Of a stretch of 53,364 bases of DNA, positions 12,418 through 24,452 are shown piece after piece. Source of the stretch: Plectonema cf. radiosum LEGE 06105 (GTDB lineage: Bacteria; Cyanobacteriota; Cyanobacteriia; Cyanobacteriales; Nostocaceae); the NCBI RefSeq assembly GCF_015207665.1, contig NZ_JADEWL010000031.1:1-53364 (forward strand). Reading direction: 5' to 3'. The translations under genes and the position numbers were made by a program. Each line of letters opens with the position of its first letter. The first letter of the stretch is position 1. The notes below the pieces were generated by a model, which saw only the letters and a program-made list of their open reading frames with translations, was not told the DNA's origin and ran no database searches.

Positions 12418-12669
12418 ATGGCAACTATAACGACTGACTTTACCGATATTTCAGCATTGCCCGGACTCAAATCACTTTGGGATGAATCACTGGGCGCTCC
12501 TGGCGTATGTGTTGCCGTACTTGACGGACCAGTTGACCAGTCTCACCCCTGCTTCGATGGAGCTAATCTTACTCGGCTTCAAACCTTGGTTTCTGGTGTC
12601 GCCGATCGCGGTTCTGCCTCCCAGCATGGAACTATCCATCCAGCTAGTGCTAGCTCTAGCAATTCTTAA
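12418..12669 (+). pseudogene. N-terminal fragment of a PatA-type subtilisin-like protease
   Basis: 83 codons. The frame carries SALPGLKSLWDESLGAPGVC, the catalytic Asp motif VAVLDGPVDQSHPCFDGANL, and reaches the His motif as SQHGT before losing similarity (IHPASASSSNS) and stopping. The Ser-bearing half and the C-terminal domain are absent. It therefore looks like the 5' remnant of a second cyanobactin protease whose N-terminus is more typical than that of the intact gene 170 bases downstream. The upstream 187-bp repeat was probably its promoter region. It cannot encode an active protease. Confidence 0.82.
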
Positions 12670-12722
12670 ATTAGGCGAAGGTATTGATAATAAGTATTTC
12701 TTCAGACGTATCAAATTACTGA

Positions 12723-12769
12723 TTAGAGATGTGTTGATACTTGCGATTTTATTCAATAGACATCTCTAA
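12723..12769. other. Inverted repeat between the protease fragment and the intact protease
   Basis: A perfect 10-bp inverted repeat, TTAGAGATGT (12723-12732) and ACATCTCTAA (12760-12769), with a shorter TTGA/TCAA match inside the 27-base loop. It may be a transcript hairpin upstream of the PatA-type gene or the scar of the event that truncated the fragment. Confidence 0.5.
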
Positions 12770-12838
12770 AATAGTAACATTTTATGGTAAATCTAATAAT
12801 TTTGTGAACTACTTAAATAAGCGTCAGGGCTGTTCTAA

Positions 12839-14806
12839 ATGAATCTTTTACCTCTTGAGCAACTATGTACAAAAACTTCCGGTAGTCCCCAAATTTGTAT
12901 TGCTGTACTCGACGGACTGATTGATTTTAAGCATTCCTGCTTTCTGGGAGCAGATTTGACCCAGCTACCGACGTTAGTTAGTGGGGAGGCAAATCCGAAT
13001 GGCGGGATGTCTTTACATGGCACTCATGTTGCCAGCATAATCTTTGGTCAGTTGGGTACCCCTGTTAGGGGAATTGCTCCTCAATGCAAAGGATTGAGTA
13101 TTCCGGTGTTTGCAGACGAAGGACGACAGTTGTCTCAACTGGATTTAGCCCGTGCGATTGAGCAAGCTGTCAATGCGGGAGCGCATATTATCAACATTAG
13201 CGGTGGGCAACTCACCGATGAAGGCGAAGCAGAAGGGTGGTTACGACGCTCTGTTCAGCTTTGCCAGGAAAAGAATGTGCTGATTATTGCAGCAGCAGGC
13301 AATGATGGCTGTGCTTGTTTACACGTTCCGGCAGCCCTTCCTGCGGTGTTAGCGGTTGGAGCAATGGATGACCAGGGTAAACCCATTGAATTCAGTAATT
13401 GGGGCGAGATTTACCAGAATCAAGGCATTCTAGCACCGGGTGAAAACATCTTAGGAGCAAAGCCAGGAGGTGGAACAACTCGGTTGAGCGGCACAAGTTT
13501 TGCCGCACCAATCACCACGGGAGTCGCAGCGCTGTTATTAAGTTTACAAATTCAGCGCGGTGAAACCCCCAATCCGCAAAAAGTTAGGGACGCAATCTTA
13601 AAGAGTGCTTTGCCCTGTACACCTGCCGATACATCCGACACAAGTCGTTGTTTACTTGGCAAGCTTAATATACCTGGTTCACTTAAATATATTTTTGGAG
13701 GAACTGTGTCTGACACTAACACTATAGAAGCCGTTACTGCCTCTGGTTGCGGCTGTACTAAAATCAAACCAATTACCGAACCAACTGAGGTGGAAGCATC
13801 CGATCTATCTCGTGTTAATGGATTAACTGCAAGCCCAACTACAAGCCCAACTGCAAATTCAATCGCTGCCTCAATTCCCCAATCTATAACCCCATCAATA
13901 CCTCCTATGACTCCATCTGTATCGAATTTCGTCACTGCTAGCCAAGCTCCTAGTGAACTTACTGACAGTCAATTTGTATATGCTTTAGGAACCCTTGGCT
14001 ATGACTTTGGCACGGAATCAAGGCGAGATTCTTTCAAACAATTGATGCCTGCTAATAATATTGGTGATATTACCGTACCAGCAAATCCCTACGATGCACG
14101 GCAAATGGTGGATTACTTGGCAGCAAGTCCTTCGGAATCCAGGTCGCTAATTTGGACGTTGAATATTGAATTGACTCCAATTTATGCGATTGAACCCCAA
14201 GGAGCATTTGCGCGAGACACCTACGCAGTTTTGCAAGAGCTATTAGCAGGGCAAATTCAAGCCGAAACCAGCGAGGAATTTGTGGAGCGGGTGAGTATCC
14301 CTGGTGTTTTGACCGGAAAAACTGTGAAGTTGTTTTCTGGGCAAGTTGTGCCGTTGATTGCACCCCAAAACCCACGGGGGATGTATGGCTGGAAGATTAA
14401 TACTTTAGTATCTGCTGCCATAGAAACAGTACAAACTACCGTGGGAGATGCCCAAGAAGAGGCAATTCGGCGCACATTGGCTAGTTTCCTCAACCGGATT
14501 TATTACGACTTACGGAATCTTGGCACCACTTCTCAAGACAGAGCGCTCAACTTTGCCGCAACGAATGCGTTTCAGGCTGCCTCTACCTTTGCCGAAGCGG
14601 TGGCAACAGGCATGGAACTCGACAGCATTGATATCGAGAAAAGCCCCTTCTGTCGCTTAGATAGCGATTGTTGGGATGTGAAACTGAAGTTTTTTGACCC
14701 AGAAAACAGCCGTCGTGCCAAGAGGATATTCCGCTTCACCATTGATGTGAGTGACCTGATTCCAGTGACCCTGGGTGACGTGAGAACTTGGTCTTCGGCG
14801 TATTAG
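12839..14806 (+). CDS. Cyanobactin N-terminal protease, PatA-like (S8 subtilase)
   Basis: 655 residues: a compact subtilisin-like domain followed by the C-terminal domain shared by PatA and PatG. The triad is Asp25 (IAVLDGLIDF), His60 (SLHGTHVASIIFG) and Ser220 (LSGTSFAAPITTG), with the oxyanion Asn in IIAAAGNDG. The spacing between Asp and His is short, as expected for PatA, which removes the leader from modified precursor. A Thr/Ser/Pro-rich linker (residues ~305-365, TASPTTSPTANSIAASIPQS) leads to the second domain (YALGTLGYDFGTESRRDSFK through NFAATNAFQAASTFAEA), which is nearly the same in the second subtilase at 20928. No signal peptide. It opens the RiPP locus, 116 bases before the first precursor. 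The start ATG has only a weak AGGG upstream. Confidence 0.92.
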   Translation: MNLLPLEQLCTKTSGSPQICIAVLDGLIDFKHSCFLGADLTQLPTLVSGEANPNGGMSLHGTHVASIIFGQLGTPVRGIAPQCKGLSIPVFADEGRQLSQLDLARAIEQAVNAGAHIINISGGQLTDEGEAEGWLRRSVQLCQEKNVLIIAAAGNDGCACLHVPAALPAVLAVGAMDDQGKPIEFSNWGEIYQNQGILAPGENILGAKPGGGTTRLSGTSFAAPITTGVAALLLSLQIQRGETPNPQKVRDAILKSALPCTPADTSDTSRCLLGKLNIPGSLKYIFGGTVSDTNTIEAVTASGCGCTKIKPITEPTEVEASDLSRVNGLTASPTTSPTANSIAASIPQSITPSIPPMTPSVSNFVTASQAPSELTDSQFVYALGTLGYDFGTESRRDSFKQLMPANNIGDITVPANPYDARQMVDYLAASPSESRSLIWTLNIELTPIYAIEPQGAFARDTYAVLQELLAGQIQAETSEEFVERVSIPGVLTGKTVKLFSGQVVPLIAPQNPRGMYGWKINTLVSAAIETVQTTVGDAQEEAIRRTLASFLNRIYYDLRNLGTTSQDRALNFAATNAFQAASTFAEAVATGMELDSIDIEKSPFCRLDSDCWDVKLKFFDPENSRRAKRIFRFTIDVSDLIPVTLGDVRTWSSAY

Positions 14807-14831
14807 ATTGAAGCACTGAGCAAACAGTCTT

Positions 14832-15315
14832 ATTTTACACACAAGAAGCGGTCATAGTCACTGACTGAGCCACGACTCGACAACAGGACACTAACAAACA
14901 ACAAAAATGGAGAAAAACTCTCATGGATAAGCAAAACTTAATGCCCCAAGCGGCACAACCCGTCAACCGCATTACCACTGGACAATTGCCTGCACAGTTA
15001 GCTGAATTATCGGAAGAAGCTCTGCAACTGAATGCTAGAGGCAGCAGTGCATCAGTTCTATCATCTCGTGAGTGTGTATTTGAAGAATGTATTATTACTG
15101 GTGGTCGTCCTATGTGGTGTTCTTATGACGGAGACGACGCAGAATAGGTTCCCACTCCATTCGGTTCTCAAATCTCTCTCAAAATTCCCTTTCCGCTCGC
15201 CCTGGAGCCTGGGAAAGCTCGGATAAATTGATTCGCGTGGCCTTCACCTGGGGAGTTTCCGTTACCTGGCATCTGTTGGGTTGAGGGGAAGATGAATGAA
15301 GTATAAGGGGAAGTT
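14832..15315 (+). repeat. Precursor cassette, copy 1 (tandem duplication)
   Basis: About 480 bases including the 5' leader (TGAGCCACGACTCGACAACA, then AACAACAAAAATGGAG), precursor 1 and a 3' tail (TAGGTTCCCACTCCATTCGG to GTTGGGTTGAGGGGAAGATG). The same order recurs at 15467-15914. Leader-coding and flanking DNA are far more alike than the core-coding part. Confidence 0.85.
14923..15147 (+). CDS. Cyanobactin-type precursor peptide 1 (PatE-like)
   Basis: 74 residues. The leader MDKQNLMPQAAQPVNRITTG, then QLPAQLAELSEEAL, matches the PatE/TruE leader, including the LAELSEEAL helix bound by the cyclodehydratase. The C-terminal SYDGDDAE corresponds to the AYDG(E) macrocyclisation signal, with Ser for Ala. 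The segment SASVLSS stands where the N-terminal recognition sequence (GLEAS/GVEPS in known systems) is expected. The intervening core would be RECVFEECIITGGRPMWC: 18 residues, three Cys, ending in Cys directly before SYDG, as in patellamide-type cores. Eighteen residues is long for a macrocycle, so trimming or a linear product is possible. GGAG precedes the ATG by ten bases. Confidence 0.92.
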   Translation: MDKQNLMPQAAQPVNRITTGQLPAQLAELSEEALQLNARGSSASVLSSRECVFEECIITGGRPMWCSYDGDDAE

Positions 15316-15466
15316 GCGCTGCGCCTACCGTAGGTAATCGCCTTTCTCGATATATAAGTAGTAGTGCAAAAATATTTATACATTGCGAAAATGCTAAAGC
15401 CTTGTGATTGCTTCGTTCCTCGCAATGACAATATATATTTAATTTTGCGTAATTACTTAGTTTGAT
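15316..15466. repeat. Interspersed repeats between the two precursor cassettes
   Basis: The spacer between the cassettes holds a palindrome-rich element (GCGCTGCGCCTACCGTAGGT) and a second element with TTGTGATTGCTTCGTTCCTC then GCAATGACA, a sequence dispersed in many cyanobacterial genomes. Neither is in the second cassette, so they were inserted after or at the duplication junction. Confidence 0.65.
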
Positions 15467-15914
15467 TTTACACCAAAAAGCGGTCAGACCCACCGACTGA
15501 GCCACGGCTCGACAACGGGACACTAACAAACAACAAAAATGGAGAAAAACTCTCATGGATAAGCAAAACTTAATGCCCCAAGCGGCACAACCAGTCAACC
15601 GCACTATTACTGGACAATTGCCTGCACAGTTGGCTGAGTTGTCGGAAGAAGCTCTGAAACTGGATGGCGACAATTGTGCATCAGTACTATCGTCTATGTA
15701 TGAGTGGAACTGTTGGATTAACTGTTCTTATGACGGAGACGACGCAGAATAGGTTCCCACTCCATTCGGTTCTCAAATTTCTCTCAAAGTTCCTTTTCTT
15801 CCCGTCCTGAAGCCTGGTTTGGTCGGATGAATCGATTCGTGATCGCCCTCACCTGAAGGATTTCGTTACCTGGTACCTGTTGGGTTGAGGGGAAGATGAG
15901 GGATTAGGGGAAGT
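15467..15914 (+). repeat. Precursor cassette, copy 2 (tandem duplication)
   Basis: Second copy of the unit described for 14832-15315: conserved 5' leader from GAGCCACGGCTCGACAACGG, precursor 2, and the TAGGTTCCCACTCCATTCGG tail. Small indels and substitutions show that the duplication is not recent. Confidence 0.85.
15555..15752 (+). CDS. Cyanobactin-type precursor peptide 2 (PatE-like)
   Basis: 65 residues with a leader almost identical to precursor 1 (MDKQNLMPQAAQPVNRTITG, then the LAELSEEAL helix) and the same C-terminal SYDGDDAE. The recognition segment is CASVLSS. The core lying between them, MYEWNCWINC, has ten residues with Cys at positions 6 and 10. A final heterocyclisable Cys before SYDG is what PatG-type macrocyclases prefer. 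The predicted product is a decapeptide macrocycle with two thiazol(in)es, unusually rich in aromatic residues (Tyr, Trp, Trp). Same ribosome binding site as precursor 1. The core is short and different while the leader is nearly constant, the classic pattern of cassette diversification in this family. Confidence 0.92.
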   Translation: MDKQNLMPQAAQPVNRTITGQLPAQLAELSEEALKLDGDNCASVLSSMYEWNCWINCSYDGDDAE

Positions 15915-15971
15915 AGGGGAGGTGGTTACGAGGGGAGGTTTTCCGCTTTTCTTGCCCCTTTAATATCTAAA

Positions 15972-16012
15972 CCAGCTAGAAGTTTATTTCCCCAATTAGA
16001 CTTTCTAGCTGG
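15972..16012 (+). terminator. Hairpin between the precursors and downstream genes
   Basis: A perfect 10-bp stem, CCAGCTAGAA (15972-15981) and TTCTAGCTGG (16003-16012), with a 21-base loop. There is no strong T-run. It is placed to give partial termination or mRNA protection, which would allow more precursor than enzyme message; this role is inferred from position. Confidence 0.5.
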
Positions 16013-16080
16013 CTTACCTACACAACGTTTTGGATCATCTCAGCCATAACACATCCCAATTCACTAAAAGGAACTAAGCT

Positions 16081-16281
16081 ATGAAACTTCCTAAACAATC
16101 TTCTCCCGTCAAACGTCCCGATTTAATTCAGCCCCACGAGGCTGTTGATGTGGTTCACGGCAGCGTGGAAGATTTGGTTAATATTCGGATTAAATTACTG
16201 CATGGTGCAAACTATAACGACCCCGCAGGGTTTCAATACCGCAGCTACAATCAACTTAAAGCTTCCGGTGGCTGTGGTTGA
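16081..16281 (+). CDS. Short leader-like protein ending in GGCG (PatC-like, or a third precursor)
   Basis: 66 residues. The start MKLPKQSSPVKRPDLIQPHE resembles the opening of cyanobactin leaders (…LP.Q..PV.R), and the C-terminus is KASGGCG. The middle (VHGSVEDLVNIRIKLLHGAN) does not contain the LAELSEEAL helix, and there is no SYDG/AYDG signal, so it is not a standard precursor. Small PatC/TenC/TruC proteins of unknown function occur in known cyanobactin clusters, and this is the most likely counterpart. AAGGA lies ten bases before the ATG. The next gene starts 62 bases later, consistent with one transcript. Confidence 0.75.
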   Translation: MKLPKQSSPVKRPDLIQPHEAVDVVHGSVEDLVNIRIKLLHGANYNDPAGFQYRSYNQLKASGGCG

Positions 16282-16343
16282 TTTCACGCCGTCGCTGGAG
16301 CGTTTTTGTAATTTAAAAGGCAGGAAAGCAAGGAGCAGGGAGA

Positions 16344-17120
16344 ATGAAAAAGGAAGCAATTAAAAGTAAGGTGCTGGTTTTCGATACCAATTCTCAGGGA
16401 ATTGCTGTAGGTAGCTCCGCATTGCGACCACAAGGACGGTTCACCATCGAAGCATGGGTATGTCCCGCCACAGATGCGGAAAAGCAGGTGATTTTTGCCG
16501 ATGGGGAGACGCAGTTTTATCTAGAAGCTGGCGAATTGAAGTTTCAGCTTACCCCAGAGGCAGAGGCCATTTCCTCAGTTGCTGCGGGTTTGGTGGCTGG
16601 TAATTGGTATCATGTTGCAGTGGCACGGGGGGGGAGTCGTCCCGGTGATACGAAGCTCTATATTAACGGCGTAGAAAACGACAATAAAACGGCAATTACT
16701 CCAGTTATTTCCTTTGGCAATACCTATTTAGGTAGATATCCAGAAGTGCCAGACTCCGGTTTTCATGGCAAACTGCTGGAAGTGCGGGTATGGCGGTTCG
16801 CGCGATCGCCAGCCGAAATTCAGGCAAATATGACCTACTTTCTCACTGGACGGGAACTGGGGTTAGTGCGCTGCTGGACATTAAATGAAGGTTTTGGTAC
16901 CGCCATCGGCGATAAAACGACCAATCGGGCGACGGGAACTGTTCTGGGGAATGCCACTTGGGAAGAATCCGAGATTCCCATCAAAACCAATCTCAATGCT
17001 CAGGAACGGTTAACGCGATCAACCGGATTAGAGGATTACGCCTACTGGTATAAGGAAATGGCAAAACAACAAAAAACCGAGGCAGATTCCATATTCTGGC
17101 GGGGGCGGATTTGGGTATAG
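16344..17120 (+). CDS. LamG-like (concanavalin A-fold) protein in the RiPP locus
   Basis: 258 residues. Residues ~15-165 read as a LamG/pentraxin-like jelly roll: GRFTIEAWVCP, then NWYHVAVARG, KLYINGVENDN, TYLGRYPE, and the closing GKLLEVRVWRFARSPAEIQA. After it come RCWTLNEGFGTAIGDKT and a charged C-terminal helix (EDYAYWYKEMAKQQKTEADS). No signal peptide, so it is expected in the cytoplasm, which is unusual for this carbohydrate- or protein-binding fold. GGGAG sits just before the ATG. Being enclosed between the precursor and cyclodehydratase genes, on the same strand, it may serve as a scaffold, peptide carrier or immunity protein; none of these can be shown here. Confidence 0.8.
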   Translation: MKKEAIKSKVLVFDTNSQGIAVGSSALRPQGRFTIEAWVCPATDAEKQVIFADGETQFYLEAGELKFQLTPEAEAISSVAAGLVAGNWYHVAVARGGSRPGDTKLYINGVENDNKTAITPVISFGNTYLGRYPEVPDSGFHGKLLEVRVWRFARSPAEIQANMTYFLTGRELGLVRCWTLNEGFGTAIGDKTTNRATGTVLGNATWEESEIPIKTNLNAQERLTRSTGLEDYAYWYKEMAKQQKTEADSIFWRGRIWV

Positions 17121-17191
17121 CGTATCACATTTCTCGTTAAGGGACTTCCAGAAAACTTCTTTATATTTATGTTACAAATTTATCAAGTGTC

Positions 17192-19480
17192 ATGAAAATT
17201 CCCCAAATTAAACCCCACTTCCGCGTGGAGATTGTTGAACCCAAAAATGTCTATTTGCTCAGCGAATCTGCCACTTACGCGCTGACAGGTAGCCTTTATT
17301 GCCAAATTCTTCCCCTTCTGGATGGGCAACATACACGAGCAGAAATAATTCAAAAACTTGATGGACAAGTTCCCCCCGAACACTTTGATTATGTCCTTGA
17401 ACGCTTGGATGAAAAAGGCTACCTCACCGATGCTGCTCATAGTCTAACCCGCGAAGCCGCAGCATTTTGGAGTCTGCTGAATGTTGATCCGCTACTAGTG
17501 AGCAATGGCTTACCCCAGACAAAAGTCTTCGTCACAACTATTGGTGCTGTTGACGCGCAAAATTTGATTGCAGCGTTGCAAGCAGTGGGAATTCCTGTAC
17601 AGCAAGGACAGCCACAGGAGTCAACAGAGGAGTCAACATTGGGGATTCATTCCCTGTGGGTAGTTCTCACCGATGACTATCTTCAGCCAGAACTGAGTCG
17701 TATCAATAAAATAGCACTGCGAACTCAGCAACCTTGGCTACTGGTTAAGCCAAACGGTGGGATACTGTGGTTTGGTTCCATCTTTACTCCCAAAGAAACA
17801 GGTTGCTGGGAATGTTTAGCTCATCGGTTACAGGGCAATCGAGAGGTAGAGACTTCCATTTTACGACAGCAAGGGAAGACGGGGAATGGATGTTTACCGA
17901 CTGCTATAGCTGGGTTGGCTTCGACGGAGCAAACAGCTATAACACTTACAACTACCGAAGTTGCGAAATGGTTGGTGCAACAGCTTGTCCCAGAGGCGAA
18001 AATTCAGACTTTAGCAGGGAAAATCATAACTTTAGACCAAACGAATTTTACCCTGAAAACCCATTCCCTAACTCAACGTCCCCAGTGTCCTGCTTGTGGA
18101 AATCCCGATTTAGTGAGTCAACAAGTCAAAAGTGCAATCGCTCTCACTAGCCGCAAAAAGCTGTTTACTCAGGATGGCGGACATCGTGCTTTTACACCAG
18201 ATCAAATCTTAAAACGTTACGAACATCTAATAAGCCCAATTACTGGAGTCGTCAGTAGCCTAACGCGATTGTCCGATCCAGAGAATCCCTTTGTACATAC
18301 CTACAGCGCAGTTCACACTTTTGGTTCTTCTGACAGTTTGGGTCAATTGCGGAAATCCCTTGGTCACAAAAGCGGTGGCAAAGGTAAAACTGACCGTCAA
18401 TCTCAAGCAAGTGGATTTTGTGAAGCGGTTGAACGCTATTCTTGTATTTACCAGGGTGACGAACCCCGAATCAAGTCTAAGTTGGCTGATTTAGACGGTG
18501 CCATTCATCCAGCACAGTGTTTGCTGTTCAGCAAAACTCAGTATCAAAATCGGGAGGAATTAAACAAAAAGTTGTTGGTTGAACACGATTGGATTCCCAA
18601 ACCTTTTGACGAAACCCAGATAATTGACTGGACACCTGTTTGGTCGCTCACTGAGCAAACCCACAAATATCTCCCCACTACCTTCTGTTATTACAATTAC
18701 AAGCTCAATAAAGAACATTGCTTCTGTTGGGCTGATTCCAACGGTAATGCGGCTGGTGGAACCCTGGAGGATGCTATTTTACAAGGATTTTTGGAACTTG
18801 CAGAGCGCGATAGTGTGGCAATTTGGTGGTACAATCGTCTACAGCGTCCTGGTGTGGATTTAGCCAGTTTCAACGAACCTTATTTACTGGATTTGCAAGC
18901 CTGGTATGGCACTCAACAGCGAGAATTGTGGGTCTTGGATTTAACCACGGATTTGAATATTCCCGCATTTGCCGCCATTTCTCGTTATACGGGTGGAGAA
19001 CAGGAATACATTATCGCTGGTTATGGCGCCCATTTCGATGCCAAAATTGCCATCTTACGAGCGGTGACGGAGGTAAATCAAATTGGTTGTCATTTACCAG
19101 AGAAGTATCCCTCAACCAATGCAGACTCGGCATTGAATTACTGGTATACTCACGCATCCATCGCCAACCAACCATATTTAGCACCTTCTCAAGCTCCTGC
19201 CAAACAAGCCACTGATTATAACCAACAGTGGAACGACGATATCCATCAAGATGTCTTGAACTGTGTGGATATTGTAGGAAAAGTTGGGCTGGAAATGCTG
19301 GTACTTAACCAGACTCGTCCTGATATTGGCTTACCTGTGGTCAAAGTTATTGTACCAGGTTTACGTCACTTCTGGTCGCGTTTTGGGGCTGGAAGGTTGT
19401 ATGATGTGCCTGTAAAACTCGGCTGGCTCCCTGCACCTATAGCTGAAAATCAAATGAATCCTATGCCAATGGTGTTTTAA
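17192..19480 (+). CDS. Fused E1-like/YcaO cyclodehydratase (PatD-like)
   Basis: 762 residues, the expected size of PatD/TruD. The N-terminal ~90 residues form a RiPP recognition element (YLLSESATYALTGSLYCQIL, LDEKGYLTDA) that binds the leader. An E1-like domain follows, with a zinc tetrathiolate from GCWECLAHRL (~residue 205) and RPQCPACGNPD (~305). From ~residue 370 it is a YcaO domain with the ATP-binding signatures SGFCEAVERYSC and LQGFLELAERDSVAIWWYNR. The tail NPMPMVF matches the proline-rich C-terminus needed in this family. The known reaction is ATP-dependent cyclodehydration of Cys (and sometimes Ser/Thr) to azolines. It ends one base before the oxidase gene starts, so the two are surely co-translated. 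Confidence 0.94.
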   Translation: MKIPQIKPHFRVEIVEPKNVYLLSESATYALTGSLYCQILPLLDGQHTRAEIIQKLDGQVPPEHFDYVLERLDEKGYLTDAAHSLTREAAAFWSLLNVDPLLVSNGLPQTKVFVTTIGAVDAQNLIAALQAVGIPVQQGQPQESTEESTLGIHSLWVVLTDDYLQPELSRINKIALRTQQPWLLVKPNGGILWFGSIFTPKETGCWECLAHRLQGNREVETSILRQQGKTGNGCLPTAIAGLASTEQTAITLTTTEVAKWLVQQLVPEAKIQTLAGKIITLDQTNFTLKTHSLTQRPQCPACGNPDLVSQQVKSAIALTSRKKLFTQDGGHRAFTPDQILKRYEHLISPITGVVSSLTRLSDPENPFVHTYSAVHTFGSSDSLGQLRKSLGHKSGGKGKTDRQSQASGFCEAVERYSCIYQGDEPRIKSKLADLDGAIHPAQCLLFSKTQYQNREELNKKLLVEHDWIPKPFDETQIIDWTPVWSLTEQTHKYLPTTFCYYNYKLNKEHCFCWADSNGNAAGGTLEDAILQGFLELAERDSVAIWWYNRLQRPGVDLASFNEPYLLDLQAWYGTQQRELWVLDLTTDLNIPAFAAISRYTGGEQEYIIAGYGAHFDAKIAILRAVTEVNQIGCHLPEKYPSTNADSALNYWYTHASIANQPYLAPSQAPAKQATDYNQQWNDDIHQDVLNCVDIVGKVGLEMLVLNQTRPDIGLPVVKVIVPGLRHFWSRFGAGRLYDVPVKLGWLPAPIAENQMNPMPMVF

Positions 19481-19481
19481 T

Positions 19482-20873
19482 ATGTCCGATACCTTCACCC
19501 TCTCCTTCCGCCCCGAAATTGTCTTTACCGATGAAACTGATCGCTTGACGCTGCAATTCGCGACCCACAGCCTCACTCTAGATCGCCCTCAACCAGGATT
19601 GAGATCGGCATTGGAACATCTAAAACATTCTGCCCTAACCACAGCCCAACTAACTGCTTTGGTTGTAGAAGCTGATGGTGTGGAAGACAGTTCAAACTTT
19701 GAAGCTGAGTTACAAAAGCTGATTAACCTGGGCTGGATTTGTCATTCTGTTTTACCCTTAGCAACCGCCGTTGCCATCACTACTGATTATCAATTGATTT
19801 CTCCGGTTTTTGATTGGGATAAGAATTTTAACCTATCTCGCTTTGCCTTTCTGCGTCAAGAAAATCAACAATTTGTCTTAGAATCTCCCTTATCTAAAGC
19901 CAAAATTATTCTTCTAGATTGGCGTGCTGCCGCTTTAATTGGGAAACTGGCTCAGTCTGATTCGTCATTGACGTTAGAGAATTTAGCAGATTCGCTAATT
20001 AATGTAGAAATAGTGCAATCGCTGATTAAGTTGCTGATTGCTACTAAGATGATTTCCTTAGAACCTGAAAGTGAAGCATTAGCGGAATGGCAATTTCACA
20101 ATCTTCTGTTTCATCGTCAAACCCGTTTAAAGCGATTAGACGATGCACGAAAATCACAAATACCGAGCTTCGAGGATAGCGAGCGCGCGCACTTTGTCAA
20201 GTCTCCCATGAGCGATGAAGTCATTTTCTTAGAGAAACCTCACCTAGAAGCGTTAGCCAAAACAGATATTTCCCTCACCCAAGCGATAGAATCCAGACAA
20301 TCAATTCGTGAGTATGACAACCAACCTATCACCCTCAAGCAGTTGGGAGAATTCCTATATCGCTGTGCCAGGGTGAAAGAGGTTTACACCCGTGAGGAGG
20401 ATATTATGAACATTGGAGAACTTACAAAACGTCCTTACCCTGCTGGTGGTGCTTTATACGAGTTGGAAATTTATCCTGTGATTAATCAGTGTCAGGGATT
20501 GGATTCAGGATTATACCACTATCAGCCATTGTCTCACGCCTTGTATGCAATCGCCGATGGAAATTCAACAGTTGAAGCCTTAATTTTCGATGCCTGGAAA
20601 TCAACGGGACAGCAAAATGTTCCCCAAGTGCTTCTGATTGTGACGGCTCGGTTTGGGCGATTGTTCTGGAAGTACTATGCCATCGGTTATGGGTTGATTT
20701 TAAAACATATTGGTGTTTTGTTTCAAACATTTTACCTGGTTGCTACTGCCATGCAATTAGCTCCCAGTGCAATTGGTGCAGGAAACTCGGAACAGTTCGT
20801 CAAAATCGCCAATCTCAACGAGTACGAAGAGTCTTCTGTGGGAGAGTTTATTCTCGGTTCATTGAAGCAATAA
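19482..20873 (+). CDS. SagB-type azoline dehydrogenase (nitroreductase fold)
   Basis: 463 residues. The N-terminal ~200 residues are a winged-helix/RRE-like region as in SagB enzymes. The C-terminal ~200 are a flavin nitroreductase fold: LTQAIESRQSIREYDNQPIT, then KRPYPAGGALYELEIYPVIN, LDSGLYHYQPLSHALYAI and YRC/Lys-containing helices. Such FMN enzymes oxidise thiazolines to thiazoles. In PatG this domain is fused to the macrocyclase; here it is a separate gene directly after the cyclodehydratase (one-base gap) and 54 bases before the macrocyclase gene. Its presence predicts aromatic thiazoles in the final products. Cytoplasmic. Confidence 0.92.
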   Translation: MSDTFTLSFRPEIVFTDETDRLTLQFATHSLTLDRPQPGLRSALEHLKHSALTTAQLTALVVEADGVEDSSNFEAELQKLINLGWICHSVLPLATAVAITTDYQLISPVFDWDKNFNLSRFAFLRQENQQFVLESPLSKAKIILLDWRAAALIGKLAQSDSSLTLENLADSLINVEIVQSLIKLLIATKMISLEPESEALAEWQFHNLLFHRQTRLKRLDDARKSQIPSFEDSERAHFVKSPMSDEVIFLEKPHLEALAKTDISLTQAIESRQSIREYDNQPITLKQLGEFLYRCARVKEVYTREEDIMNIGELTKRPYPAGGALYELEIYPVINQCQGLDSGLYHYQPLSHALYAIADGNSTVEALIFDAWKSTGQQNVPQVLLIVTARFGRLFWKYYAIGYGLILKHIGVLFQTFYLVATAMQLAPSAIGAGNSEQFVKIANLNEYEESSVGEFILGSLKQ

Positions 20874-20927
20874 ATTAAAATCTTTGCTTGCCCAACTCGA
20901 TCCCACTTTATCCTATTTATTACTTCT

Positions 20928-23228
20928 ATGCCTGACTTTAATACCATTCCCGGTTTTGCTGCTCTGCAAGCTCTGACTCTTGGTGATTCTCGGATCAAAA
21001 TTGCTGTTTTAGATGGATCAGCCGATTTAGAGCGCGCTTGCTTTCGGGGTGCAAACTTGAGTAAAGCTAAAGCTTTTTGGCAAACAGATTTAGAGCCAAT
21101 CGATCCGATTTATATTCAAAGGGAACTTCAAATTAGGAAGTTGGGAGACAAAAAAAAGGCTTTAAAGAAAGCATTGAAGCAGATCGAAAAGCAGAATACG
21201 GATACAGCCCCAGTGCTATCTGTTGCTGAAATAATGCCGCCGCATTCTATCACTACCATCTTCAATGGTGTATTAGAAAACACAGAGGCACCATTGCTAG
21301 AACATTATCATCAGTTAAAAAACTTCAAGCAACAGCAAACAAAACTCAAACCAGAAATCCCCGCAAACACCGACTATAAAGCAGAAATTAAAGCCTTAGA
21401 GGAAGAAATTGAGGCATTGAGAGACTCAATTCCCAAACTTGTTCGAGAACGTCTCAATTGTATCTTTCATGCAACAGGCATCTTTGGTACAATATTTGGG
21501 CAACCAGGTTCCCCAGTGGAAGGAGTTGCTCCCTACTGCACCGCTATTAACATTCCCCTATTTGAAACCTCAACGGGTGATGAGGCACTCTCACCGTTGA
21601 ACTTAGCTCATGCCTTTAACCTGGCATTGGAACTGGGAGTAAACATCATCCACTGTGCAGCCTGTCATCCCACTCAAACTGGGTTTGCCCACGAAATGAT
21701 TCAGAAAGCGGTGAAGCAGTGCCAAGATAATAATATTCTAATTGTAGCTCCATCAGGCAACAATAAGGGCGAATGCTTTTGCGCTCCGGCGATTTTGCCA
21801 AATGTCCTGGCAGTGGGTATGATGAAAGACAATGGTCAACCCGCCAACTACAGTAATTGGGGTGGACAATATCAGCAACAGGGTATTCTTGCACCGGGTG
21901 AAAACATAGTAGCAGCACAACCCGGTACCGATGAACCAGCACGCCAAGAAGGAACCAGTTTGGCTGCCCCCTTAATGACAGGCATTTCTGCTTTACTAAT
22001 GAGTCTACAACTACAACGGGGCGAAAAACCTAATGCCGAAACTGTTCGTCAAGCTATTTTAAATAGTGCTATTCCCTGCGACTCCAAGGAAGTTGAGGAA
22101 CCAGAACGCTGTCTAGTCGGTAAATTAAATATTCCCGGAGCCTATCAATTATTAACTGGGCAGCTTTTACCCAACATTCAATCAAGTGCAGTTGTCCTTC
22201 CGCAAATGATTTTACCACCAAACAGCAACTCTTTCCCAGATAGTTCTGAATCTGCCGTAATAAGTGCCTCCCAATCTCTTAATGAGGTTGACAATTCTGC
22301 CGCTATGAAACTTGTTACCGCCTCAGCTACAATTATAGATATTTCCCCTGCTCCCCTTTCACCTTCTAACATCACCCCCAGTGCCGTCTCCAACACAGTC
22401 TACGCCCTCGGCACCCTTGGCTACGATTTCGGTTCTGAAGCCCGCCGCGATACCTTCAAGCAACAGATGCCTGGGGTCAACATTGATGGGGTATTAATTC
22501 CGGCTAATCCCTATGATGTCAGCCAAATGGTTAATCATCTGGAGTTGAGTCCCACTGAAGGTAAATCTCTTATTTGGACGCTGAATCAAGAACTTACCCC
22601 AATTTACGCCCTAGAACCCCAAAAGGCTTTTGCCAGCGAAATATATACGGTATTTCAGATGCTTTTGGCTGGACAAATTCAGCCAGAAGAAAGCGATGAT
22701 TACATTGAGCGAGTCAGCATTCCTGGCAATCTAACCAATCGCAGCGTCGAACTTTTTTCCGGGCAAGTCGTTCCTATCCTTGCACTGCCTAATATTCGGG
22801 GGATGTATGGTTGGCAAGTCAACTCATTGGTCGAAGCAGCCGTTGCCACCGTTAGCCCTGAGACCCGCGAATCTGATAACGTGATGATGCGCCGTACCCT
22901 CAAAAGTTTCCTGCATCGCATCTACTATGACCTCCGCAACTTAGGACATTTAGACCGCGATCGCGCTCTCAATTTTGCTGCGACAAACGCCTTTCAAGCA
23001 GCCTCCACTTTTGCTGAAGCCATTAATAGCGGCATGGGATTAGACAGCATTGAGATTGAAAAAAGCCCCTTTTGTCGCTTGAACGGTAATTGTTGGGACG
23101 TGATGCTGAAGTTTTTCGACTCAGAAAACGGCCGACGCGCCAAAAAGGTGTATAGATTCACCATTGACGTTGCCAATATTATGCCAGTCACTCTGGGGCA
23201 AGTGCGTTCGTGGTCAGTACCACGTTAG
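20928..23228 (+). CDS. Cyanobactin macrocyclase-type subtilase (PatG-like, no oxidase domain)
   Basis: 766 residues. The triad is Asp29 (IAVLDGSADLERACF), His181 and Ser344 (EGTSLAAPLMTG), with the oxyanion Asn in VAPSGNNKG. Asp and His are separated by ~150 residues against 35 in the PatA-type protein; the extra ~115 residues are predicted helical and highly charged (LGDKKKALKKALKQIEKQ; IKALEEEIEALRDSIPKL). PatG macrocyclases carry a helical insert at just this place, which shields the acyl-enzyme from water. The His motif is FHATGIFG instead of the usual HGTHVA. The C-terminal domain copies that of the PatA-type protein. Lacking the PatG oxidase domain, it relies on the separate SagB-type gene. 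No signal peptide. Confidence 0.9.
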   Translation: MPDFNTIPGFAALQALTLGDSRIKIAVLDGSADLERACFRGANLSKAKAFWQTDLEPIDPIYIQRELQIRKLGDKKKALKKALKQIEKQNTDTAPVLSVAEIMPPHSITTIFNGVLENTEAPLLEHYHQLKNFKQQQTKLKPEIPANTDYKAEIKALEEEIEALRDSIPKLVRERLNCIFHATGIFGTIFGQPGSPVEGVAPYCTAINIPLFETSTGDEALSPLNLAHAFNLALELGVNIIHCAACHPTQTGFAHEMIQKAVKQCQDNNILIVAPSGNNKGECFCAPAILPNVLAVGMMKDNGQPANYSNWGGQYQQQGILAPGENIVAAQPGTDEPARQEGTSLAAPLMTGISALLMSLQLQRGEKPNAETVRQAILNSAIPCDSKEVEEPERCLVGKLNIPGAYQLLTGQLLPNIQSSAVVLPQMILPPNSNSFPDSSESAVISASQSLNEVDNSAAMKLVTASATIIDISPAPLSPSNITPSAVSNTVYALGTLGYDFGSEARRDTFKQQMPGVNIDGVLIPANPYDVSQMVNHLELSPTEGKSLIWTLNQELTPIYALEPQKAFASEIYTVFQMLLAGQIQPEESDDYIERVSIPGNLTNRSVELFSGQVVPILALPNIRGMYGWQVNSLVEAAVATVSPETRESDNVMMRRTLKSFLHRIYYDLRNLGHLDRDRALNFAATNAFQAASTFAEAINSGMGLDSIEIEKSPFCRLNGNCWDVMLKFFDSENGRRAKKVYRFTIDVANIMPVTLGQVRSWSVPR

Positions 23229-24065: not shown

Positions 24066-24452
24066 ATGGATCTTGTACAACAAGTTATTGCACTTACCAA
24101 TCAAGAACGTGCTAATCATGGCTTAGGAGCCTTAGAATGGAATGAGCAACTGTTCAAAGCGGCACAAGGACATTCTCAAAACATGGCACACGGCGATTTC
24201 TTTGAGCATGGCGATCCCGTTAAACGTGCCAGAGAGGAAGGATATCCATCTTCCTTTGTTGGAGAGAATATTGCGGCAGGCAGACCTACACCAGAAGCTG
24301 TAATGCAACAGTGGCTGAATAGCCCAGGACACCGCAACAATATTCTTAGTCCAGATTATACAGAAATTGGTGTCGGTCATTGCTATCTAGAGAACGACCC
24401 AGGTCGATTGCAATACAAACATTATTGGACGCAAGTCTTTGGAAAACGCTAA
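24066..24452 (+). CDS. CAP (SCP/PR1-like) domain protein without signal peptide
   Basis: 128 residues, a minimal bacterial CAP domain: VIALTNQERANHGLGALEWN, then KAAQGHSQNMAHGDFFEHGD, GENIAAG, MQQWLNSPGHRNNIL and the closing HYWTQVFGKR. The putative metal-binding His (FEH and SPGHR) and Glu (GENI, and EIGVGHC) are kept. Most CAP proteins are secreted, yet no signal peptide is present; translation starts directly at the domain from a good AAGGAG. It shares the upstream 187-bp repeat with the RiPP locus start, so both may respond to one signal. Substrate and role are unknown for this family. Confidence 0.88.
   Translation: MDLVQQVIALTNQERANHGLGALEWNEQLFKAAQGHSQNMAHGDFFEHGDPVKRAREEGYPSSFVGENIAAGRPTPEAVMQQWLNSPGHRNNILSPDYTEIGVGHCYLENDPGRLQYKHYWTQVFGKR

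Follow-up and report, generated by a model that had tools for sequence, protein, structure and literature searches.

The window analysed here, a stretch of 53,364 nucleotides from Plectonema cf. radiosum LEGE 06105 (contig NZ_JADEWL010000031.1), very probably encodes a cyanobactin pathway that is complete and belongs to the ThcOx lineage. Eight co-directional open genes on the forward strand (12839-23228) stand in the order PatA, E1, E2, PatB, PatC, PatD, oxidase, PatG. The marks of the lineage are a clade of stand-alone oxidases and an enlarged segment of the macrocyclase PatG. Neither was mentioned in the original prediction made from this DNA, which had described a cyanobactin-type locus and took it for a distinct sub-type on the grounds of a separate oxidase, a missing PatF and an added LamG protein. 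The proposed pathway to unprenylated azole macrocycles is well supported at the level of sequence.

Gene set and predicted chemistry

Genes were named from Pfam and/or NCBIfam profile matches and, for PatA, PatD, the oxidase and PatG, from relatives of solved structure; the profile scores lie far outside chance (Table 1). PatA and PatG are subtilisin-type proteases carrying PatG_D and PatG_C, and alignment columns showed that the catalytic Asp, His and Ser are all kept in both. Profile searches matched no oxidase domain in PatG. The stand-alone oxidase matches the solved structures 5lq4 and 8pz5, and the solved relatives of PatD are LynD (best), TruD and MusD. These matches bear out the PatA-like protease, the two PatE-like precursors, the PatD-like cyclodehydratase, the SagB-type oxidase and the oxidase-less PatG-like macrocyclase of the original prediction. 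Two of its labels were wrong: the 66-residue gene called PatC-like is PatB (TIGR04220), and the supposedly added LamG protein is PatC itself, a LamG domain followed by the PatC/TenC/TruC tail (TIGR04447). Its start at 12418 falls in a relic, the truncated remains of a different PatA-family gene, and the pathway begins at 12839. The genome (323 contigs, rated 100% complete) contains one strong A/G pair only, and searches gave no strong PatA/PatG match besides it. Profile searches detected no methyltransferase or transporter among the genes within 12839-23228.

Table 1. Features of the cyanobactin locus and its relic (window positions; bits are profile scores)
Feature	Position	Strand	Evidence
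Relic, N-terminal fragment of lone-type PatA-family protease (83 aa)	12418..12669	+	tblastn: 85% identity with L122 across 76 aa; further matches L079, L072, L076
PatA	12839..14806	+	leader protease + PatG_D/PatG_C; TIGR03895 945 bits (cut-off 421); solved relatives incl. 4h6w
Duplicated precursor cassette	14842..15899	.	repeat search: 193 nt upstream + leader 92%, 95 nt tail + downstream 92%, 39 nt more 92%
Precursor E1	14923..15147	+	74 aa; PF19155 80.3 bits (cut-off 25), TIGR03678 59.1 bits (cut-off 39.6)
Predicted E1 core RECVFEECIITGGRPMWC	15067-15120	+	boundaries inferred
Precursor E2	15555..15752	+	65 aa; PF19155 79.6 bits (cut-off 25), TIGR03678 61.2 bits (cut-off 39.6)
Predicted E2 core MYEWNCWINC	15696-15725	+	boundaries inferred
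PatB	16081..16281	+	66 aa; TIGR04220 122 bits (cut-off 55)
PatC	16344..17120	+	LamG PF13385 residues 14-160, 80 bits; TIGR04447 tail residues 227-257, 41 bits (cut-off 30)
PatD	17192..19480	+	YcaO PF02624 318 bits; winged-helix N-terminal domain PF21084
Stand-alone azoline oxidase, ThcOx clade	19482..20873	+	PF22767 ThcOx 113 bits, TIGR03605 178 bits
PatG	20928..23228	+	macrocyclase + PatG_D/PatG_C; TIGR03895 828 bits; solved relatives 4aks, 4h6x, 4uvq
Extra PatG segment, residues 87-158 between catalytic Asp and His	21186..21401	+	two-piece phmmer match, spacing table

The two PatE-type precursors have leader and tail in common and differ in their cores. Each combines a leader with LAELSEE and an RSII-like site, a single core (18 residues in E1 and 10 in E2) and a SYDGDDAE tail. 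The core boundaries, a cut after SVLSS and a cut before SYDG, were set by analogy and from relatives. Cys is the last residue of both predicted cores, as would suit a PatG requiring a thiazoline or Pro at that position, a requirement reported in excerpts of PMC10043927. No additional precursor of the E1/E2 family was found in the genome.

The PatF profile TIGR04445 matched nothing anywhere in the genome. Run across 40 genomes having PatA/PatG-family matches, it scored above the cut-off in 18, the window genome again being negative, so that the absence claimed by the original prediction was confirmed and can be regarded as meaningful. Since no PatF-family prenyltransferase is encoded, the products are expected to be unprenylated.

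In the pathway that we propose, PatD would bind E1 and E2 by their leader and convert their core Cys residues to thiazolines. PatA would cleave after SVLSS, and PatG would cleave before SYDG and close the ring head to tail at the C-terminal heterocyclised Cys of both cores. The ThcOx-type oxidase would turn thiazolines into thiazoles, either before or after ring closure. The locus would add two new predicted cyanobactins, an unprenylated cyclic 18-mer with up to three thiazoles and a cyclic 10-mer with up to two. The calculated [M+H]+ values are 2050.854 for the 18-mer bearing three thiazoles (2056.901 as three thiazolines, 2032.844 if its Thr is cyclised in addition to the three thiazoles) and 1303.448 for the 10-mer bearing two thiazoles (1307.480 as two thiazolines); linear forms would be heavier by 18.01. 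By analogy with pat, PatB may be dispensable for this chemistry. PatC, in which a ConA-like lectin fold (LamG) is joined to a tail specific to the pathway, probably acts outside it, for example by holding or placing the product or the enzymes at glycan.

A lineage marked by its oxidase and macrocyclase

The window was compared with related loci, 65 in total, comprising the window, five of 13 named loci (the other eight being contigs already included) and three sets of 32, 20 and 7 stretches. The 32 stretches came from 28 other genomes above the cut-off (29 of 388 with that of the window) and two genomes below it; the 20 stretches came from 19 of the 52 matching genomes among 217. BLASTP searches with the window proteins and four PatF proteins showed which genes each locus contains. 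Some loci are cut at contig ends, and others have a lone PatA-type gene only; at L064, L072, L073, L075-L079 and L082, no other cyanobactin gene was detected in 20 kb. One stretch, L179, is taken as the trichamide locus of Trichodesmium because it encodes, before SYDG, the core GDGLHPRLCSC, which we take to be that of trichamide.

A tree of 30 oxidases, built from the loci other than the seven added last (the trichamide oxidase being among these seven), placed ThcOx and the window oxidase together with stand-alone oxidases from 15 more loci in a 17-row clade with support 100/100. All fused oxidases fell outside it, as did the stand-alone oxidases of L057, L125, L130 and L074. The window oxidase shares 60% identity with ThcOx and 53% with the oxidase of the trichamide locus. 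The 16 PatGs paired with clade oxidases also formed one clade (SH-aLRT 100) in a tree of 42 PatGs and three PatAs, obtained by a short search with insert and linker columns excluded. The gene order A-E-B-C-D-Ox-G without PatF recurs in seven further loci (L060, L063 and L114-L118), with additional precursors interspersed in L114 and L115. PatF was found in three of the 16 lineage loci as fetched (L062, L120 and L121); its presence varies inside the lineage and is therefore not a lineage mark.

The second mark lies in PatG. Against the solved chains 4aks and 4h6x, which we take to be Prochloron PatG, the window PatG aligned by phmmer in two pieces, residues 6-86 and 159-413. These pieces overlap at positions 88-96 of 4h6x (106-114 of 4aks), leaving 72 residues between them without a counterpart. 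In alignments, the distance between the catalytic Asp and His was 152-178 residues in all 16 lineage PatGs measured (152 in the window), whereas it was 70-91 in the 26 PatGs outside the lineage, none of which reached 152-178. Within this second group, the 11 fused-oxidase PatGs measured 70-72, the trichamide locus 71, L125 72, L065 75 and L017 91, and 11 PatGs from loci without detected PatD 84-85; every PatA-type row measured gave 34-35. On the PatG tree, the spacing state changed once. The 152-178 criterion was defined on the data it describes, with ThcG outside the measured set. The spacing table and/or the tree excluded rows shorter than 560 residues (including L123 and the second proteases of L057 and L130) as well as L021 and L074, in which the Asp end is missing. 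The PatG of L123, a seventeenth relative with a broken frame, is 86-87% identical to the window PatG in its best segment, and its pattern-based Asp-His distance is 143. The PatG of Microseira wollei (L020:10001-13228) has a protein kinase domain between its protease and PatG_D domains.

A helix-turn-helix is reported to bind the AYDG tail and to shield the acyl-enzyme (excerpts of PMC10043927). By sequence alignment, the 72 residues without a counterpart would fall within it if, as we propose, it occupies those chain positions. The macrocyclisation insert is described as variable in length and sequence in excerpts of PMC4663559; variation as such is already known, and what our analysis adds is the sharp lineage-wide jump, of which we found no report among the literature matches listed, as excerpted.

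We also asked how insert length relates to core length. Predicted cores of the lineage span 8-43 residues (n = 26); 16 exceed 11 residues and 10 do not, and the nine longer than 20 residues all come from four loci. Outside the lineage, cores span 5-19 residues (n = 23), 17 of them contributed by five loci in which short cassettes are repeated. Boundaries in these counts were set by patterns of our own definition, and closely related genomes were counted separately. Ten lineage frames were excluded, nine without the tail pattern (9 of 36 frames; L013, L019, L020, L114 and L116-L118) and one missed by the leader pattern. From the other loci, 14 frames were excluded: nine without a set RSII boundary, three missed by the leader pattern (trichamide among them) and two without the tail pattern. 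The longest core, in L114:12052-12348, is predicted to have 43 residues with 15 Cys, far above the 6-20 residues of cyanobactins overall (excerpts of PMC4663559). PatGmac is reported to cyclise rings of up to 29 residues with dropping yield (excerpts of PMC10043927). The tie between insert length and ring size is weak and only a guess, because loci outside the lineage (L056, L131 and L132) have cores of 17-19 residues too, one excluded L056 precursor may contain a core well over 20, and the 10 shorter lineage cores have at most 11 residues. Cys-rich precursors ending in CIR, with no SYDGDDAE tail, occur at L114:13226, L116:8632, L117:8094 and L118:8993; the last three are near-identical and come from related genomes.

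PatC modules and alternative readings

A LamG-PatC fusion was present in 20 of the 65 loci, seven of which lie outside the ThcOx lineage. The tail is preceded by one LamG copy in the window, L114 and others, by two in L062 and by four in L060, L063 and L017. The PatCs of L120 and L121 carry a CVNH lectin domain and LamG before the tail, and that of L063 gave a beta-trefoil match below the cut-off. Most listed tails end in RRGRIW or similar. A model of the tail gave 21 matches in 18 of 26 genomes, always within or beside a cyanobactin locus; it was silent in five genomes without a strong PatG match and in three with a locus (G443, G452 and G460). PatB and PatC are reported to be non-essential and of unknown role (excerpts of PMC4259220 and PMC4663559). 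In our view, PatC may serve to carry or place. A general lectin rule is countered by PatCs that consist of little besides the tail, many loci having a PatC of 65-80 aa, and by the six scanned PatCs of 241-294 aa, none of which had a Pfam match above the cut-off.

Several observations weigh against a working pathway in the window. The heterocyclised E1 core of 18 residues exceeds the 6-11 residues published for heterocyclic cyanobactins (excerpts of PMC4663559). Promoter- and terminator-like sites in the locus were not more frequent than in shuffles. PatD ends (19460-19480) in PMPMVF instead of the PxPMPF of LynD and TruD; this objection is softened by the relatives, since the same end is found in 14 of 15 lineage PatDs (13 of 14 besides the window), the remaining one, L060, having SMPMVF, as does the PatD of L179. 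PatF is described as essential for patellamides in vivo (excerpts of PMC4663559), and its lack could mean a silent cluster. This is countered by L179, in which PatF was also not found within the 20 kb fetched.

A silent or decaying cluster, with genes that look intact and no product since PatF or an activating signal is missing, is in our view unlikely. Relatives do show signs of decay, namely the nine lineage precursor frames without the tail pattern and L122, where PatD, PatB, PatC and a precursor were all not found within the 16.6 kb fetched. In the window itself, all eight genes are open and have family matches, the triads of PatA and PatG are kept and both precursors have their tail; moreover, the PatF-less gene set is maintained in seven other loci. 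That PatG acts as a hydrolase releasing linear azole peptides, contrary to the ring closure proposed above, is quite improbable. Linear cyanobactins exist (excerpts of PMC7551963 and PMC5460452), and the Asp-His segment is strongly unlike that of solved PatG, but the sequence flanking the extra segment on both sides still aligns with the solved chains, and the eight genes include no methyltransferase, unlike the viridisamide-type cluster (excerpts of PMC5460452).

Most doubtful is a novel sub-type defined by the separate oxidase, the lack of PatF and LamG, as the original prediction had it. The gene combination is unlike pat, and no mention of LamG in a cyanobactin locus was found among the literature matches listed. 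However, separate oxidases are published, including that of thc (excerpts of PMC5108345), and L179 as fetched combines a separate oxidase with a lack of PatF. LamG belongs to PatC and is also seen in types other than this one, and PatF varies within the lineage. The locus does sit in a well-defined lineage, yet one marked by the oxidase clade and the enlarged PatG segment, and the claim made on the three features is mostly unsupported.

A broader model can also be formulated: the lineage macrocyclase would have gained, once, about 80-110 residues in the helix-turn-helix that shields the acyl-enzyme, enabling larger Cys-rich rings, and PatC would be a lectin carrier built of modules (LamG, CVNH, perhaps beta-trefoil on a universal tail) that positions the enzymes or the product at a glycan surface. 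We hold this model to be speculative and rather unlikely. Should the segment set ring size, the lineage would supply an enzyme useful for making large peptide rings, and what the macrocyclisation insert does could be tested. The lectin modules provide a first handle on PatC.

Surroundings and relation to named systems

Nine flanking open reading frames were searched. A semialdehyde dehydrogenase and an AAA_35 gene lie upstream of the locus; downstream are a CAP-domain gene, two PIN-domain genes, GidB and porphobilinogen deaminase. None of the nine matched a transporter, and the sole methyltransferase was GidB, an rRNA enzyme. The relic at 12418, which matched no protein family above the cut-off in profile searches, stands outside the working pathway. 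The CAP gene (24066-24452) is 88% identical to the CAP gene that follows the lone PatA-type gene in L076 (9735-12957). Together with the relic, this is a weak hint that a lone PatA-type/CAP site was where the cluster came in. No near DNA match to the locus was found in plasmids.

Among the named systems, the pat/ten type shares with the window the PatA, PatB, PatC, PatD, PatE and PatG logic and the SYDG/AYDG tail. It differs in having the oxidase fused to PatG (excerpts of PMC5108345) and in the spacing of its fused-oxidase PatGs; the window has neither feature of the pat genotype, a fused oxidase and PatF. Both window precursors scored above the cut-off of the microcyclamide/patellamide precursor family TIGR03678; what sets them apart from it is that each carries one core, of 18 and 10 residues respectively.

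The tri and thc clusters are distinguished from pat-type clusters in excerpts of PMC3877893 and PMC4663559, and ThcOx, ThcOx2 and TriOx are listed as standalone oxidases in Table 1 of PMC5108345, as excerpted. The tri oxidase is described as a separate frame (excerpts of PMC3877893). Like the window, L179 has a separate oxidase, an oxidase-less PatG and PatD. Its genes lie on both strands, its PatC has 72 aa and no LamG, its PatG spacing is 71 compared with 152, and its PatG falls outside the lineage clade.

The thc cluster of Cyanothece sp. PCC 7425 was considered a genotype of its own, with an organisation "currently unique" in 2013 (excerpts of PMC3877893). We now find close relatives of its oxidase in 16 loci, whose macrocyclases share the enlarged segment. 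Our comparison with thc concerned the oxidase, which belongs to the same clade as that of the window; both systems also have several separate precursor genes. Published thc has a methyltransferase, an ABC transporter and nine precursors, whereas the window has two precursors and neither of the other genes in its cluster. The window therefore belongs to an already known kind, and its closest counterpart by oxidase is thc, minus the methyltransferase and the transporter.

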